IMG/VR virus record: IMGVR_UViG_3300025736_000269
Coordinates: 1 to 20,142 of that record
Length of the DNA stretch: 20,142 nucleotides
Direction: 5' to 3' (one strand)
Source: a virus
Position numbers and translations under genes: made by a program. The notes beneath the pieces were generated by a model, which saw only the letters and a list, made by a program, of their open reading frames with translations, searched no databases and was not told where the DNA came from. Positions 3,604-18,065 of this stretch are shown one piece after another (position 1 is the first letter of the stretch; each line of letters opens with the position of its first letter).

Positions 3604-4674
3604 TCAGTATCGGACGATCAGTGGCTTGATATACATGGCCTGTTTTGCCAGCTGGATAAAAACTTCCAGCTGGTCCCAGCAAAATTGGTCCATTCGGATG
3701 GCCTGGGCAATCCCAGCTTGAGATACCTTTTCGTAAGTGGCTCGGTCGTCTAGGGACCGGACGGCTTCCAGCCATGGCTCCAATTCACGGGGCGTGATTG
3801 TTCCATGCTCCAGATTTCGCTGGCCAGGCTGACGGACGAAGACACCCCCGCCCCCCACCGATTCCTGAAGGCTTGGAATATCGGACGCCACAACCGGGAT
3901 CCCGTTGGCCGCCGCTTCCAGGGCCGCCATCCCAAACGATTCCTCATAAGACGGCATGACCAGGACGCGGGTGTCCCCGTAGACCGCCGCGATATTTTTA
4001 GAATTCGGCCTGATTTCCAGGTTTGGGGCGTCGGCCTTGATCTGGTTCCCATAGCCACCAACGACCCCAATGAACGGGCGGTCAGGCATGGCCAGGACCA
4101 TGTCCTTGAACAAGTGACCGCCCTTGTGTTCTGTCAGGTTCACCAGAGTGACCGGCCCCTTGTCACTAGACCCAGGGTGGGTTCTGGCCTGGGTCCGGTC
4201 CCGGTCAATCGGTGGGTACAGAATGACCTTGTCGCATGATTTCCAGCCGGATCCGGCCCAGCAAGAAACAGCATTGAAGACCCACAAGTCAACCGCTTCC
4301 CTGATAGACTGGTCAATGCTTCGATCATAGAACCACGGGCCGTGATTCACCACGCCCACGGGAATCCCCATCTTCTTGCAAGCGTTGACCACCCGTGGGG
4401 TCCATTCAAATTGGACCAGGACCAGGTCTGGCCGGTGTTCCTGGATCAGTTCTTCCACGTCAGCCCTGGCCCGAATCCCAGCGCCCAGCCGTCGAATGAC
4501 CCGGCCCGTGGATTCGTCATGGATCCGGTGGCGGTTTTTCGGCGTCTTCGGGGTGTGGGTTGCAATCGTGACCGTGTGCCCCATGGACACCAGCCGGGTG
4601 GCTATCCCATAACAGTAGGTTTCACCACCCGCCCAAAAGGGAAGGTATCGGGGCGTGTACCAAAGAATGTGCAC
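3604..4674 (-). CDS. Glycosyltransferase family 4 (GT-B fold)
   Basis: A 356-residue protein with the two Rossmann domains of a GT-B retaining glycosyltransferase. The N-terminus MHILWYTPRYLPFWAGGETY carries the usual early strand and glycine-rich acceptor-side loop (PFWAGGE). The C-terminal domain has the GT4 donor-site motif: E245 in PSYEESFGMAALEA, then seven residues to E253 (E-x7-E), followed by NGIPVVASD. It would transfer a nucleotide-sugar-activated sugar to an acceptor I cannot identify. The start is GTG (4674), with an AAGGGGG SD spanning the end of the GT2 gene, which stops 3 bases upstream, so the two are coupled. There is no signal peptide or membrane segment, so it is probably cytoplasmic. 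It lies within the head-neck structural genes, which suggests modification of virion protein or DNA. Confidence 0.85.
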   Translation of the reverse strand: MHILWYTPRYLPFWAGGETYCYGIATRLVSMGHTVTIATHTPKTPKNRHRIHDESTGRVIRRLGAGIRARADVEELIQEHRPDLVLVQFEWTPRVVNACKKMGIPVGVVNHGPWFYDRSIDQSIREAVDLWVFNAVSCWAGSGWKSCDKVILYPPIDRDRTQARTHPGSSDKGPVTLVNLTEHKGGHLFKDMVLAMPDRPFIGVVGGYGNQIKADAPNLEIRPNSKNIAAVYGDTRVLVMPSYEESFGMAALEAAANGIPVVASDIPSLQESVGGGGVFVRQPGQRNLEHGTITPRELEPWLEAVRSLDDRATYEKVSQAGIAQAIRMDQFCWDQLEVFIQLAKQAMYIKPLIVRY

Positions 4675-4676
4675 TG

Positions 4677-5633
4677 TCAGCCCCCTTCCTTCGTATGTTC
4701 AGCGTCGGGAAGGGGCCGCCCCTTTTCGTCCATGAATTCACGCCACGCCCCCCGCTGGTCTTCGTCCCATACGGGCGTCCCGTCGGGGCATACTTCCAGC
4801 GGGACCTGGTCCTGTATTTCTTTGGGATAGGGACGCGGCTGGGCGGGGTGTTCCACCTGGTCTGGGACCGCTGGCATGTTTTGATTGTCCCAGTTCGTGG
4901 TGGTGACCTGGCCGTGGTCGTGAATACGGACCATGGTCATGAAATCGTCCAGGATCCTGAAACACTTCTGGCCGTAGTACCCATGAAGGCGGCTGTATAG
5001 GTCCCAGTCCGACCCTCGACGTTGACCGCTGGCCAGGGATCCGGGGCCGTTCTCCAACCAGTCCCAGCGATAAGCGCCCACCTGGAACATGGCGTCCGTC
5101 CGACAGGCAAACCCACCACCGGACCAGTGGGTGACACGGGGCCGTCCGTGGTGGTAGTTCAGGGATCCACGCCACGCTTGGGAGTCGGGCATTAAATTGC
5201 CCCACCGGTCAATGTGGGCCGCGTCACCGGTCAGGGCTATCAAAGTGGGGTCATCCTTGAACGCCTGGACTGTCACGGCCAGGCGGTGTGGAAGGCTAAT
5301 ATCGTCGTCATCGGCCTGGACCACGATGGGGCCACGGGCCAGCGACAAGCTGACGTTTCGCTTCCTGGCCAGGCTGGTCCCAGGTTCCACGCGGACCACT
5401 TTGATCTGGCCTTGACGGCGGGTGGGTAGCTGGTCCAGACAGACGGCCAGGACGTCCGCCACGTCGGCCCTGTCGTCCATGTCTTCGGTGTCGTCCACTA
5501 TGATCAGTTCCCAGTCCGTGAAAGTCTGGGCCACGATGGACTCAATGGCTTGTTTCAGGTATCCGCCCCGCCCGTGGGACAGCATAAGGACGGACACCGC
5601 TGGGGTCTTGTTCGGGGTCATTGGCTTGGTCAT
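4677..5633 (-). CDS. Glycosyltransferase family 2 (GT-A fold)
   Basis: A 318-residue GT-A type transferase. The opening strand is AVSVLMLSHGRGGYLKQAI, followed by the nucleotide-binding strand WELIIVDDTED, the conserved SLARKRNVSLSLARG helix, and the metal-binding acidic cluster VQADDDDIS (about residues 106-112). A later GSDWDLY motif (about 208-213) sits where the family's catalytic ED usually lies. The frame opens further upstream to 5678 (MAFFLILE), but that start lies inside the terminator hairpin, so 5633 is chosen; an AAGGA lies 11 bases upstream, a rather long spacing. The C-terminal 70 residues are acidic and proline-rich and look like an extra tail. The pair with the downstream GT4 gene suggests sequential addition of sugars to one acceptor. 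Confidence 0.8.
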   Translation of the reverse strand: MTKPMTPNKTPAVSVLMLSHGRGGYLKQAIESIVAQTFTDWELIIVDDTEDMDDRADVADVLAVCLDQLPTRRQGQIKVVRVEPGTSLARKRNVSLSLARGPIVVQADDDDISLPHRLAVTVQAFKDDPTLIALTGDAAHIDRWGNLMPDSQAWRGSLNYHHGRPRVTHWSGGGFACRTDAMFQVGAYRWDWLENGPGSLASGQRRGSDWDLYSRLHGYYGQKCFRILDDFMTMVRIHDHGQVTTTNWDNQNMPAVPDQVEHPAQPRPYPKEIQDQVPLEVCPDGTPVWDEDQRGAWREFMDEKGRPLPDAEHTKEGG

Positions 5634-5664
5634 TGGTTGGGTTGTCCTTGTCGTTTCGAGGATC

Positions 5665-5702
5665 AAAAAAAACGCCATGGCCGGTAAAGGCCATGGCGTT
5701 TT
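5665..5702 (-). terminator. Strong intrinsic (Rho-independent) terminator after the capsid gene
   Basis: On the minus strand, AAAACGCCATGGCC pairs perfectly with GGCCATGGCGTTTT around the 6-base loop TTTACC, and the stem runs into eight T residues. This is a textbook terminator 40 bases past the capsid stop. It would separate very high capsid expression from the glycosyltransferase and neck genes. The reverse direction has only TTTT, so it acts chiefly on leftward transcription. Confidence 0.92.
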
Positions 5703-15971: not shown

Positions 15972-17057
15972 CTACAGGCGGGCCAGCTTGTCAATTGTGT
16001 CAATGTTGTTTCCCATCGCCCTGGCCAGACGTCCGCCGGGTTCACCGTCCCCCGGCTCAGCATTGTAGAAGGCCACCAACGCCTCAATGATTTCCTTGGT
16101 CCCCGCCACCGTGGACGCGGACAAGCGCCGCGAATTGAACCAGTGCTCAAGCCATGCTTCGTGGGCCGCTGGCCAGGCCCGCCTGACGAAGTCTTCCACG
16201 GCTTCGGCATAGCGCCGGATTTCCCACTGGGCGTGGGGGTCCAGTCGCAAGCCCAGAAGTTTGAACAGATTGTGGCCGTCCAGGTTCCAGACCCATTCGG
16301 TGTAGGTCCCCGTACCCAGGACTTCCCGCGCCAATTCCTTCGGGACGCCGTCCGCAATCAAGGCCGTATAGGTCGCATACTGGTGTTCGGCTTCGGCCTT
16401 GATCCGTCCCTGGATCTTCTCCGCCCTGTTCGGATCCCACTCTGTCCCCTTCTTAGGCTGACCCATGGTTTCTTCCAGCCGGTCAAAGCCAGGGATATAG
16501 AAGTCCCCACCCGCCGTGGTGTATCTCAGAGACAGTTCGTTTATCCTGGCCATACGATGGCGGACCAGCTGGCGGGCCACGAAGATCGGCATACGAATCA
16601 CCAGCTTCATGACCACCTGTTCCAGTGGCGACGTGTGGCCAGACTCCATTAGGTGTCCAACCAGCTTGGCGTTCTTTTCGTGAGGGTAGTCCCCCGCCTT
16701 CCCAAAGGACATGCGGGCCGCGTTCGCTATGGCCTGATCGTCACCCATGACGTCCTCCAGGCAAACGAAGCCGTGGTCAAGAACAAGGATCTTTTCACCG
16801 ATCATGTCCTTGGGATCCCAGGGGGCGTCCAGTTTATTGCCCCGGCTGTCGGCCCAGAATTTCGTCCCGGCCAGCTGGTCCACTTCAGTGTCAGTCAAGG
16901 GGGCTGGCGGTTCCTCGTCTGGTCCAAGGTTGTATCTGGTGGCCCCACCAGGGTGGTCCGAGTCATAGAAGGCCGAGGGCGGTTCCTGGATCGTGTTGTC
17001 CAGCTGGACCTCGGGACGCGGGGGGCCGTCGGGCTTGTCGGTGTTGTGGTTGGCCAT
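15972..17057 (-). CDS. thyX: Flavin-dependent thymidylate synthase (internal start form)
   Basis: A 361-residue product from the internal ATG at 17057 (MANHNTDKPDG), with AAAGGA about 10 bases upstream. It makes dTMP from dUMP using FAD, NADPH and methylene-tetrahydrofolate. The signature RHR-x7-S is complete at residues 166-176 (RHRMARINELS, followed by LRYT), preceded by the family's ESGHTSPLEQ (usual form H-x-S-P-x-E-H) and RMPIFVARQLV. The helical C-terminal half includes GTYTEWVWNLDGHNLFKLL and ends SRRLSASTVAGTKEI. The first 85 or so residues, Pro/Asp-rich, are an extension beyond usual ThyX length. Phages often carry ThyX to feed dTMP to replication. This form and the membrane-fused form share one frame; which is made is not decidable from sequence. 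Confidence 0.88.
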   Translation of the reverse strand: MANHNTDKPDGPPRPEVQLDNTIQEPPSAFYDSDHPGGATRYNLGPDEEPPAPLTDTEVDQLAGTKFWADSRGNKLDAPWDPKDMIGEKILVLDHGFVCLEDVMGDDQAIANAARMSFGKAGDYPHEKNAKLVGHLMESGHTSPLEQVVMKLVIRMPIFVARQLVRHRMARINELSLRYTTAGGDFYIPGFDRLEETMGQPKKGTEWDPNRAEKIQGRIKAEAEHQYATYTALIADGVPKELAREVLGTGTYTEWVWNLDGHNLFKLLGLRLDPHAQWEIRRYAEAVEDFVRRAWPAAHEAWLEHWFNSRRLSASTVAGTKEIIEALVAFYNAEPGDGEPGGRLARAMGNNIDTIDKLARL

Positions 17058-17537
17058 CTTTTGGGCTTCCTTTAGGTTCTTCCTGAAATCAGTTACGCAA
17101 GGGTGAAGGTGGGGGCCGGGTCCGCCTTCAGTCCGTCGTGGCGGGTCTTCCTTCGTGGGTGGCGACGGGTAAGCCCTTCGGTGGCGTCCGTCATCCCAGG
17201 GGGTTCGATGGGTCCAGAGCCAGCGCAAGCCCTTGGCCAGATAGATCGTGAAGACGATCATCCCCGCCATCAGGAAGACAATGACCACCCCCGCCGCCAC
17301 CCATGTGAAGAATTCTTGGACGGGGGTGATACTGGCCACGTCAGTGACCAGAACCGGGTGATCAAGGACCACTTCGATCACGTCACCGGGGTCGGCTTCG
17401 GCGGACTCGATAGCGCCGCTTGCAAGGCCAAGTCCAAGTAAAAGCAGCGCCACTAAAGACAGATAGATAACTATATATAGAAAGACTTTGACACCCTCTT
17501 TGAGGGTCCTTGACTCACGGCATAGCATGCGGGACAT
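15972..17537 (-). CDS. Two-helix membrane protein fused in frame to ThyX (full-length form)
   Basis: From ATG 17537 (SD AAAGGAG, 6 bases upstream) one uninterrupted frame of 521 codons runs through a membrane domain into ThyX. I checked the joint at 17057-17105 codon by codon and found no stop. Residues 18-39 (FLYIVIYLSLVALLLLGLGL) and 77-100 (WVAAGVVIVFLMAGMIVFTI) are clear transmembrane helices, separated by an acidic, probably periplasmic loop. Basic residues after the second helix (KGLRWLWTHR) place the C-terminus, and so ThyX, in the cytoplasm. A Pro/Arg-rich linker (residues about 110-145) precedes the ThyX part at residue 161. Membrane-tethered ThyX is not something I know. Alternatives are two products from one frame, or a lost stop codon through an indel. 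Confidence 0.6.
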   Translation of the reverse strand: MSRMLCRESRTLKEGVKVFLYIVIYLSLVALLLLGLGLASGAIESAEADPGDVIEVVLDHPVLVTDVASITPVQEFFTWVAAGVVIVFLMAGMIVFTIYLAKGLRWLWTHRTPWDDGRHRRAYPSPPTKEDPPRRTEGGPGPHLHPCVTDFRKNLKEAQKMANHNTDKPDGPPRPEVQLDNTIQEPPSAFYDSDHPGGATRYNLGPDEEPPAPLTDTEVDQLAGTKFWADSRGNKLDAPWDPKDMIGEKILVLDHGFVCLEDVMGDDQAIANAARMSFGKAGDYPHEKNAKLVGHLMESGHTSPLEQVVMKLVIRMPIFVARQLVRHRMARINELSLRYTTAGGDFYIPGFDRLEETMGQPKKGTEWDPNRAEKIQGRIKAEAEHQYATYTALIADGVPKELAREVLGTGTYTEWVWNLDGHNLFKLLGLRLDPHAQWEIRRYAEAVEDFVRRAWPAAHEAWLEHWFNSRRLSASTVAGTKEIIEALVAFYNAEPGDGEPGGRLARAMGNNIDTIDKLARL

Positions 17538-17709
17538 GGGCTTCTCCTTTGGCTTGCTGTGGTGGGGGTTCCAGGCTCCGCCACCGTTGGGGGTCAATCA
17601 ATTCGGACTTCGAGACCGGCCTGATCTGGGGCCGATTCGCTGTCTTGTAACCTTTGTAACCTTTGTATACCTTTGGCGTCAAGGTATACAGGGTCTTTTC
17701 TTCAGTCAT
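17515..17709 (-). CDS. Small protein of unknown function (YKGYKGYK motif)
   Basis: A 64-residue open frame starting MTEEKTLYTL, with GGAAG 8 bases upstream. It overlaps the start of the membrane-ThyX gene by 23 bases, consistent with coupling. Its residues VYKGYKGYK are encoded by iteron pair 1, and the preceding YTLTPK by a 25-bp palindrome, so the peptide may be an accident of the DNA repeats. The remainder (RPVSKSELIDPQRWRS) looks protein-like. No membrane segment or known domain. Real gene or fortuitous frame: about even. Confidence 0.35.
   Translation of the reverse strand: MTEEKTLYTLTPKVYKGYKGYKTANRPQIRPVSKSELIDPQRWRSLEPPPQQAKGEAHVPHAMP
17665..17689. promoter_or_regulatory. 25-bp palindrome P1 (probable protein-binding operator)
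   Basis: GTATACCTT and AAGGTATAC, nine perfect complementary bases, flank the 7-base spacer tggcgtc. This is the size and form of a site for a dimeric DNA-binding protein. It adjoins iteron pair 1. A near-identical copy lies at 17909-17933. Confidence 0.7.
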
Positions 17710-17789
17710 TCCGGCCACTTCCATGGGGCGCTTGTAACCTTTGTAACCTTTGGCCGGTCGCTGGCCCTATTACAATAATTACACGTATG

Positions 17790-17804
17790 GCGCAAATTTT
17801 GCGC
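17790..17804. promoter_or_regulatory. Central palindrome of the iteron array
   Basis: gcgcaaa and tttgcgc are perfect complements around a single central base at 17797, within 3 bp of the axis of the whole array. AT-richer sequence (attacaataattaca) lies just to its left. It could be a melting or binding centre. Confidence 0.6.
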
Positions 17805-17908
17805 TGCGGGGTCATGCCGAAAATGCTCCTCATGTGCGTGGCCGGGTAAAGGTTACAAAGGTTACAAGGGGCTTGTTATTTCTTAGTGATTCCGGTGATT
17901 TGAGTGCT

Positions 17909-17933
17909 GTATACCTTTGGCTTCAAGGTATAC
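17909..17933. promoter_or_regulatory. 25-bp palindrome P2 (probable protein-binding operator)
   Basis: The same nine-base arms as P1 (GTATACCTT / AAGGTATAC) with spacer tggcttc, one base different from P1. It lies at the mirror position to P1 across the axis at about 17799, just inside iteron pair 4. Confidence 0.7.
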
Positions 17934-18065
17934 AAAAGGTTACAAGGTTACACGGCCTTATGTTCGGATTCTGTACAGTAGGCTGTTTTTTGTAGGATAA
18001 AGGTCGGGCCGCCTAACACAGTCGTGCTTACACCACTTGGTTTGGCCAACTATGTTTTCTTTGGA

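Follow-up and report, generated by a model that had tools for sequence, protein, structure and literature searches.

What could be the role of a 307-bp array of mirrored repeats, ordered with near-perfect symmetry, in an uncultivated tailed phage? The array was read and computed on a virus record of 20,142 bp, the whole of which we refer to as the window. An earlier note on this DNA proposed three roles: an origin of replication to which an initiator binds, a regulator switch, or a giant cruciform-forming site. We approach the question through the layout of the array, the occurrence of similar arrays beside genes of other phages, and the genes that surround it.

Layout and symmetry of the array

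The repeated unit is TGTAACCTT, present in eight exact copies, four per strand: at 17646, 17655, 17733 and 17742 on the plus strand and at 17849, 17858, 17936 and 17944 on the minus strand. This matches the four pairs, two in each orientation, that had been noticed initially. Searched across the 20,142-bp window, the 9-bp unit has no further exact copy outside the array. With up to one mismatch allowed there are 11 matches in the window, whereas 100 shuffles averaged 1.9 and never exceeded 6. The commonest 7-mer of the array region likewise has 8 copies, against a maximum of 4 in the other 350-bp stretches of the window.

From left to right the array consists of two units, a 27-bp palindrome, two further units and a 98-bp centre, followed by the mirror image of this order. 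The outer left pair (17646–17663, plus strand, spacing 9 bp) adjoins the left palindrome TGTATACCTT-TGGCGTC-AAGGTATACA (17664–17690), whose 10-bp arms are perfect, and the inner left pair lies at 17733–17750 (plus strand, spacing 9 bp). Beyond the centre stand the inner right pair (17849–17866, minus strand, spacing 9 bp), the right palindrome (17908–17934), which is 96% identical to the left copy, and the outermost right pair (17936–17952, minus strand), the only one of the four with a spacing of 8 bp. The centres of mirrored units sum to 35598, 35599, 35599 and 35599 and those of the palindromes to 35598, placing the mirror axis at 17799–17799.5 with agreement to within 1 bp. The earlier description holds up, but needs small corrections. 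The two palindromes exist and are placed as mirror images, but they measure 27 bp with 10-bp arms, not 25 bp with 9-bp arms; the common axis holds for the pairs and these palindromes, while the central 15-bp palindrome GCGCAAATTTTGCGC (17790–17804), read directly, is centred at 17797, about 2 bp off; and the outer-pair spacings, said to match, are 9 bp on the left and 8 bp on the right, with mirror sums still within 1 bp. The spacers at 17691–17730 and 17869–17907 are similar when aligned in the same direction rather than as mirror images (AGTCATTCCGG and AGTGATTCCGG; shuffle p ~0.002 for the whole spacers), AGTCATTCCGG being found at 17704–17714 on the plus strand and again, in direct orientation, at 17885–17895.

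The palindromes may belong to the same system as the units. The arm sequence TGTATACC resembles the P4 iteron in its 8-bp form and makes up arrays 3' of helicase genes elsewhere, on which grounds each palindrome is probably an inverted pair of TGTATACC half-sites and hence also composed of iterons. Eight TGTAACCTT and four TGTATACC then give 12 half-sites in the window, six per side, in two blocks and both orientations. The central spacer (17751–17848), which we propose as the melting region, is not especially AT-rich overall (55% G+C), and contains an AT-richer 40-bp core at 17767–17806 (37.5% G+C vs 59.8% for the window). The least stable 50-bp stretch of the window, at 17453–17502, lies just outside the array and is possibly an accessory unwinding element.

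Similar arrays and their neighbouring genes

Is the repeated word peculiar to this phage? The 18-mer TGTAACCTTTGTAACCTT occurs exactly in 31 viral contigs, against roughly one that we estimate by chance, and about 20 of these contigs carry clusters of 4–13 TGTAACC, some of them mirror-ordered like that of the window; at locus L034, six copies on the plus strand precede six on the minus strand. Three tandem TGTAACC are found in at least 120 viral and at least 114 genome stretches, whereas a completed viral scan with the reversed word, a composition-matched control, yielded 25. Arrays of this word are present in many unrelated phages, satellites and prophages, the phages spanning 30–66% G+C, and their preferred spacing is 9 bp, as in the window. 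The raw excess is in part made of coding repeats or one-sided promoter-type arrays, and because these inflate raw scans, further counts were restricted to two-orientation arrays. As a literature search word, TGTAACC returned unspecific matches.

The large open reading frames beside two-orientation arrays (59 after removal of redundancy) are rich in primase-helicase domains, with Pfam matches to DUF5906 (11), DUF927 (10), VapE-like (8), D5_N (4) and Cch HTH (4), compared with DUF5906 (3), VapE (2) and D5_N (2) among control frames of the same loci more than 1 kb from the array. Within 600 bp of a gene of the D5/VapE/DUF5906/DUF927 type (superfamily 3-like) we count 54 arrays; random placement within these loci would put about 26 there. 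The array is on the 3' side of the helicase gene in 52 of the 54 (38 of 40 viral, 14 of 14 genome), counts obtained with profiles mostly seeded from array neighbours and on loci that are not all independent; an HMM started from P4 alpha alone placed 16 of 19 arrays on that side. When only arrays with 2.5 kb on both sides are considered (n=23), the helicase gene lies within 600 bp in 15, and some 1–3 kb away in three of the other eight.

The form of the arrays agrees with that of the window. In 52 helicase-linked arrays, sites on the same strand are most often 9 bp apart (94, vs 33 at 10, 28 at 11 and 16 at 8), and most of these arrays hold 9–12 sites with one mismatch allowed; the window has spacings of 9, 9, 9 and 8 and 12 half-sites. 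Inverted TGTAACC pairs with short spacers are common within other arrays. The arm pair of the window's palindrome recurs at L283, in an array whose TGTATACC-like pairs are spaced at 9 bp and which closely follows a D5_N/DUF5906/Pox_D5 gene on its 3' side, and at L269 and L379, where TGTATAC-type arrays lie 3' of helicases, the TGTATACC half-site also forms arrays. Inward orientation of the iterons was considered as a general rule and rejected, 28 of 87 arrays being strongly inward and 20 strongly outward.

The association has its exceptions. No clear iteron array was seen at the gene end in PB1, Bcep1 and ep3, whose helicases are short matches, or in the full-length helicase relatives of Javan100, BT401P1, BK687P4 and phi46:1. 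Conversely, five well-flanked two-orientation arrays (L044, L147, L194, L232 and L233) have no D5/VapE-type helicase in their flanking sequence. Together with the lack of such a gene in the window, these arrays speak for an origin served by another iteron binder, such as a RepA-, O- or DnaA-like initiator. We give this reading a small chance, since the precise word and spacing of the window are those of the helicase-linked arrays, and the half-site of its palindromes also occurs 3' of D5/VapE-type helicases.

Given these helicase-less arrays, and the single-orientation arrays at clostridial promoters and in repetitive coding sequence, the word TGTAACC alone is not diagnostic. In Clostridia genomes (L158, L177, L190, L205 and L217) one-sided TGTAACC triplets have a spacing of about 11 bp and several stand just upstream of TATAAT-like elements; they are probably an OmpR/PhoB-type regulon, not origins. 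In one Bacteroidetes genome, CAIOTH01, a one-sided triplet is found on many contigs (L176, L188, L201, L209, L224 and L229), and the nearly constant core around it in the four copies read suggests a dispersed repeat element. Three tandem TGTATACC in the viral scan were mostly one-sided period-9 repeats, few of them non-coding and one 3' of a helicase; such period-9 runs at L310, L316, L345 and others of L309–L388 are collagen-like Gly-Ile-Gln coding repeats, a trap for motif scans. Clear but unannotated iteron arrays also lie just 3' of a VapE-type gene in the Staphylococcus phage phiSa2wa_st93 (L272), in Pd_22F (L271) and in snusmum9-1 (L279), with other iteron words (GATGCAACA, GTCAACA and AGGTAACC); these are candidate origins of named phages.

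Genomic setting and alternative roles

The array sits in a non-coding gap of about 470 bp (~17598–18065) between plausible genes. The gap is flanked by leftward-read genes, and the array lies upstream of the packaging and structural genes. All recognisable genes of the window are on the minus strand: tail sheath, two glycosyltransferase-like proteins (the second judged from sequence only), major capsid, head protease, head morphogenesis, portal, large terminase and a ThyX-type thymidylate synthase. The two glycosyltransferase-like genes (3604–5678, minus strand) are within the structural module, directly after the major capsid gene. Upstream of the likely start, the ThyX frame (15972–17597, minus strand) continues without a stop for about 180 codons, over a protein-like stretch with apparent membrane segments; this is either a separate gene that shares the frame or part of a membrane-extended ThyX.

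This position would suit a transcriptional switch, in which the array would be an operator for a phage regulator of the downstream packaging and structural genes. The clostridial triplets, if read as OmpR/PhoB-type operators, lend the idea a precedent. Operators of that type have single-orientation repeats about 11 bp apart just upstream of a –10 element; the array of the window is two-sided, mirror-symmetric and spaced at 9 bp, and arrays of its form lie 3' of helicase genes. Its region has a single weak sigma-70-like promoter match, no more than in shuffles. We therefore regard the switch, the second of the originally proposed roles, as unlikely.

Clustered iterons are typical of centromeres too, and the array might on that account be a partition site of a phage-plasmid. 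This is improbable: the scanned window proteins include no match to a partition protein, and the large proteins adjoining such arrays are mainly primase-helicases. The least credible reading is that of a mobile element or the giant cruciform of the earlier note. The outer arms do form an interrupted inverted repeat, but one long arm would require the intervening spacers to be inverted copies as well, which they are not, and the neighbourhood of the array has neither a transposase match nor an Rfam RNA family match; nothing else favours a cruciform, whereas the comparative evidence favours an initiator-bound origin.

The phage-encoded replication protein that such an origin calls for was sought in the window by Pfam, PHROGs and profile searches, and no D5/VapE-type gene was found in the 17.6 kb to the left or the 2.2 kb to the right of the array. 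The initiator gene would, then, be located to the right of the fragment, or the layout in this phage differs from the usual one, as it does in P4 with its separate ori. The window has no DNA similarity to named phages. A terminase search for close relatives gave a single 5.5-kb contig, encoding an identical terminase, and a search by major capsid gave none; neither search yielded a relative bearing the remainder of the phage genome.

A candidate origin and its possible code

Which known origins does the array resemble? The annotated ori of the satellite P4 (NC_001609) has type-1 repeats TGTTCACC spaced at 9–11 bp. Its ori and crr resemble the window in iteron form (TGTTCACC vs TGTAACC and TGTATACC), in spacing and in the use of both orientations. 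While crr is directly 3' of the alpha primase gene, the second iteron block, ori, is more than 2 kb from it; P4 thus sets a precedent for the separation of an origin and its initiator gene, and adjacency is not absolute. Unlike the satellite P4, the window belongs to a tailed phage that encodes structural proteins of its own, its mirror symmetry is much stricter, and its 20-kb fragment shows no initiator gene, whereas that of P4 is known (the alpha primase-helicase). In PICIs, the origin directly follows the initiator gene on its 3' side and consists of iteron blocks around an AT-rich region (PMC6092414). The window shares with the PICI/SaPI rep-ori two iteron sets flanking a candidate melting region, but PICIs are satellites (PMC6092414), and no gene of the initiator type was found next to the array in the window. 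The SCCmec helicase Cch2 uses its C-terminal domain to bind iterons that lie downstream of the gene encoding it (PMC7581432). Cch and Cch2 are a case of a ring helicase acting on short direct repeats 3' of its gene, and Cch-type HTH_56 proteins and DUF927 proteins adjoin TGTAACC arrays; the SCCmec iteron, AAGTG, differs from that of the window and has only three copies (PMC7581432).

Five sister phages suggest how the iteron may be specified. Their helicases are 88–100% identical over the first 360 residues, yet their iterons differ (TGTAACC, TGTCTACC and TGTATAC). The protein of the TGTAACC carrier (L266) differs from those of the TGTCTACC and TGTATAC carriers mainly at residues 361–809, with identity down to 43% at residues 721–780; between the latter two, after residue 480, the last ~30 residues differ most (70%). 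The downstream position of the array is kept despite this divergence. The iteron and the C-terminal half of the helicase co-vary in these phages, which fits recognition of the iteron by that half, though the same pattern would follow if the two were exchanged together as a single block.

We consider it probable that the array of the window is a replication origin bound by a phage-encoded primase-helicase of the D5/VapE type (superfamily 3-like). The array and its symmetry are directly observed, as is the same iteron at the same spacing beside such helicase genes in other phages; because no such gene was found in the 20-kb fragment, and no relative with the rest of the genome, the link to the initiator is one that we infer, and our confidence is limited to that extent. 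In the proposed mechanism, TGTAACC and each palindrome arm TGTATACC would be a half-site for the C-terminal DNA-binding domain of the helicase. The six half-sites per side (two, the palindrome and two) would seat one hexamer per side, an attractive reading of their number. Both rings would then open the AT-richer centre and travel away from each other, so that replication starts bidirectionally. The scheme presumes that the phage has such a helicase, that the helicase binds here and that a double hexamer is formed.

The array can be viewed as a tailed phage's candidate bidirectional origin of the P4/PICI type. While this kind of origin is already known, our data suggest that similar iteron blocks are common beside primase-helicase genes of ordinary tailed phages too. 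The array provides a specific candidate origin for an uncultivated phage, together with a protein-binding code that can be tested. In many unrelated phages a simple sequence signature seems to point to the origin, and its sharing and drift are of more interest than the single origin. We tentatively raise the possibility, on which we are nearly evenly divided but lean towards doubt, that TGT(1–2 nt)ACC at about 9-bp spacing is a drifting origin code shared by a large class of primase-helicases (D5/VapE/DUF927) from phages, satellites and integrated elements of different bacterial phyla, and that it is specified anew when the helicase C-terminal domain changes. If true, sequence alone could locate origins in many uncultivated viruses, this phage included.
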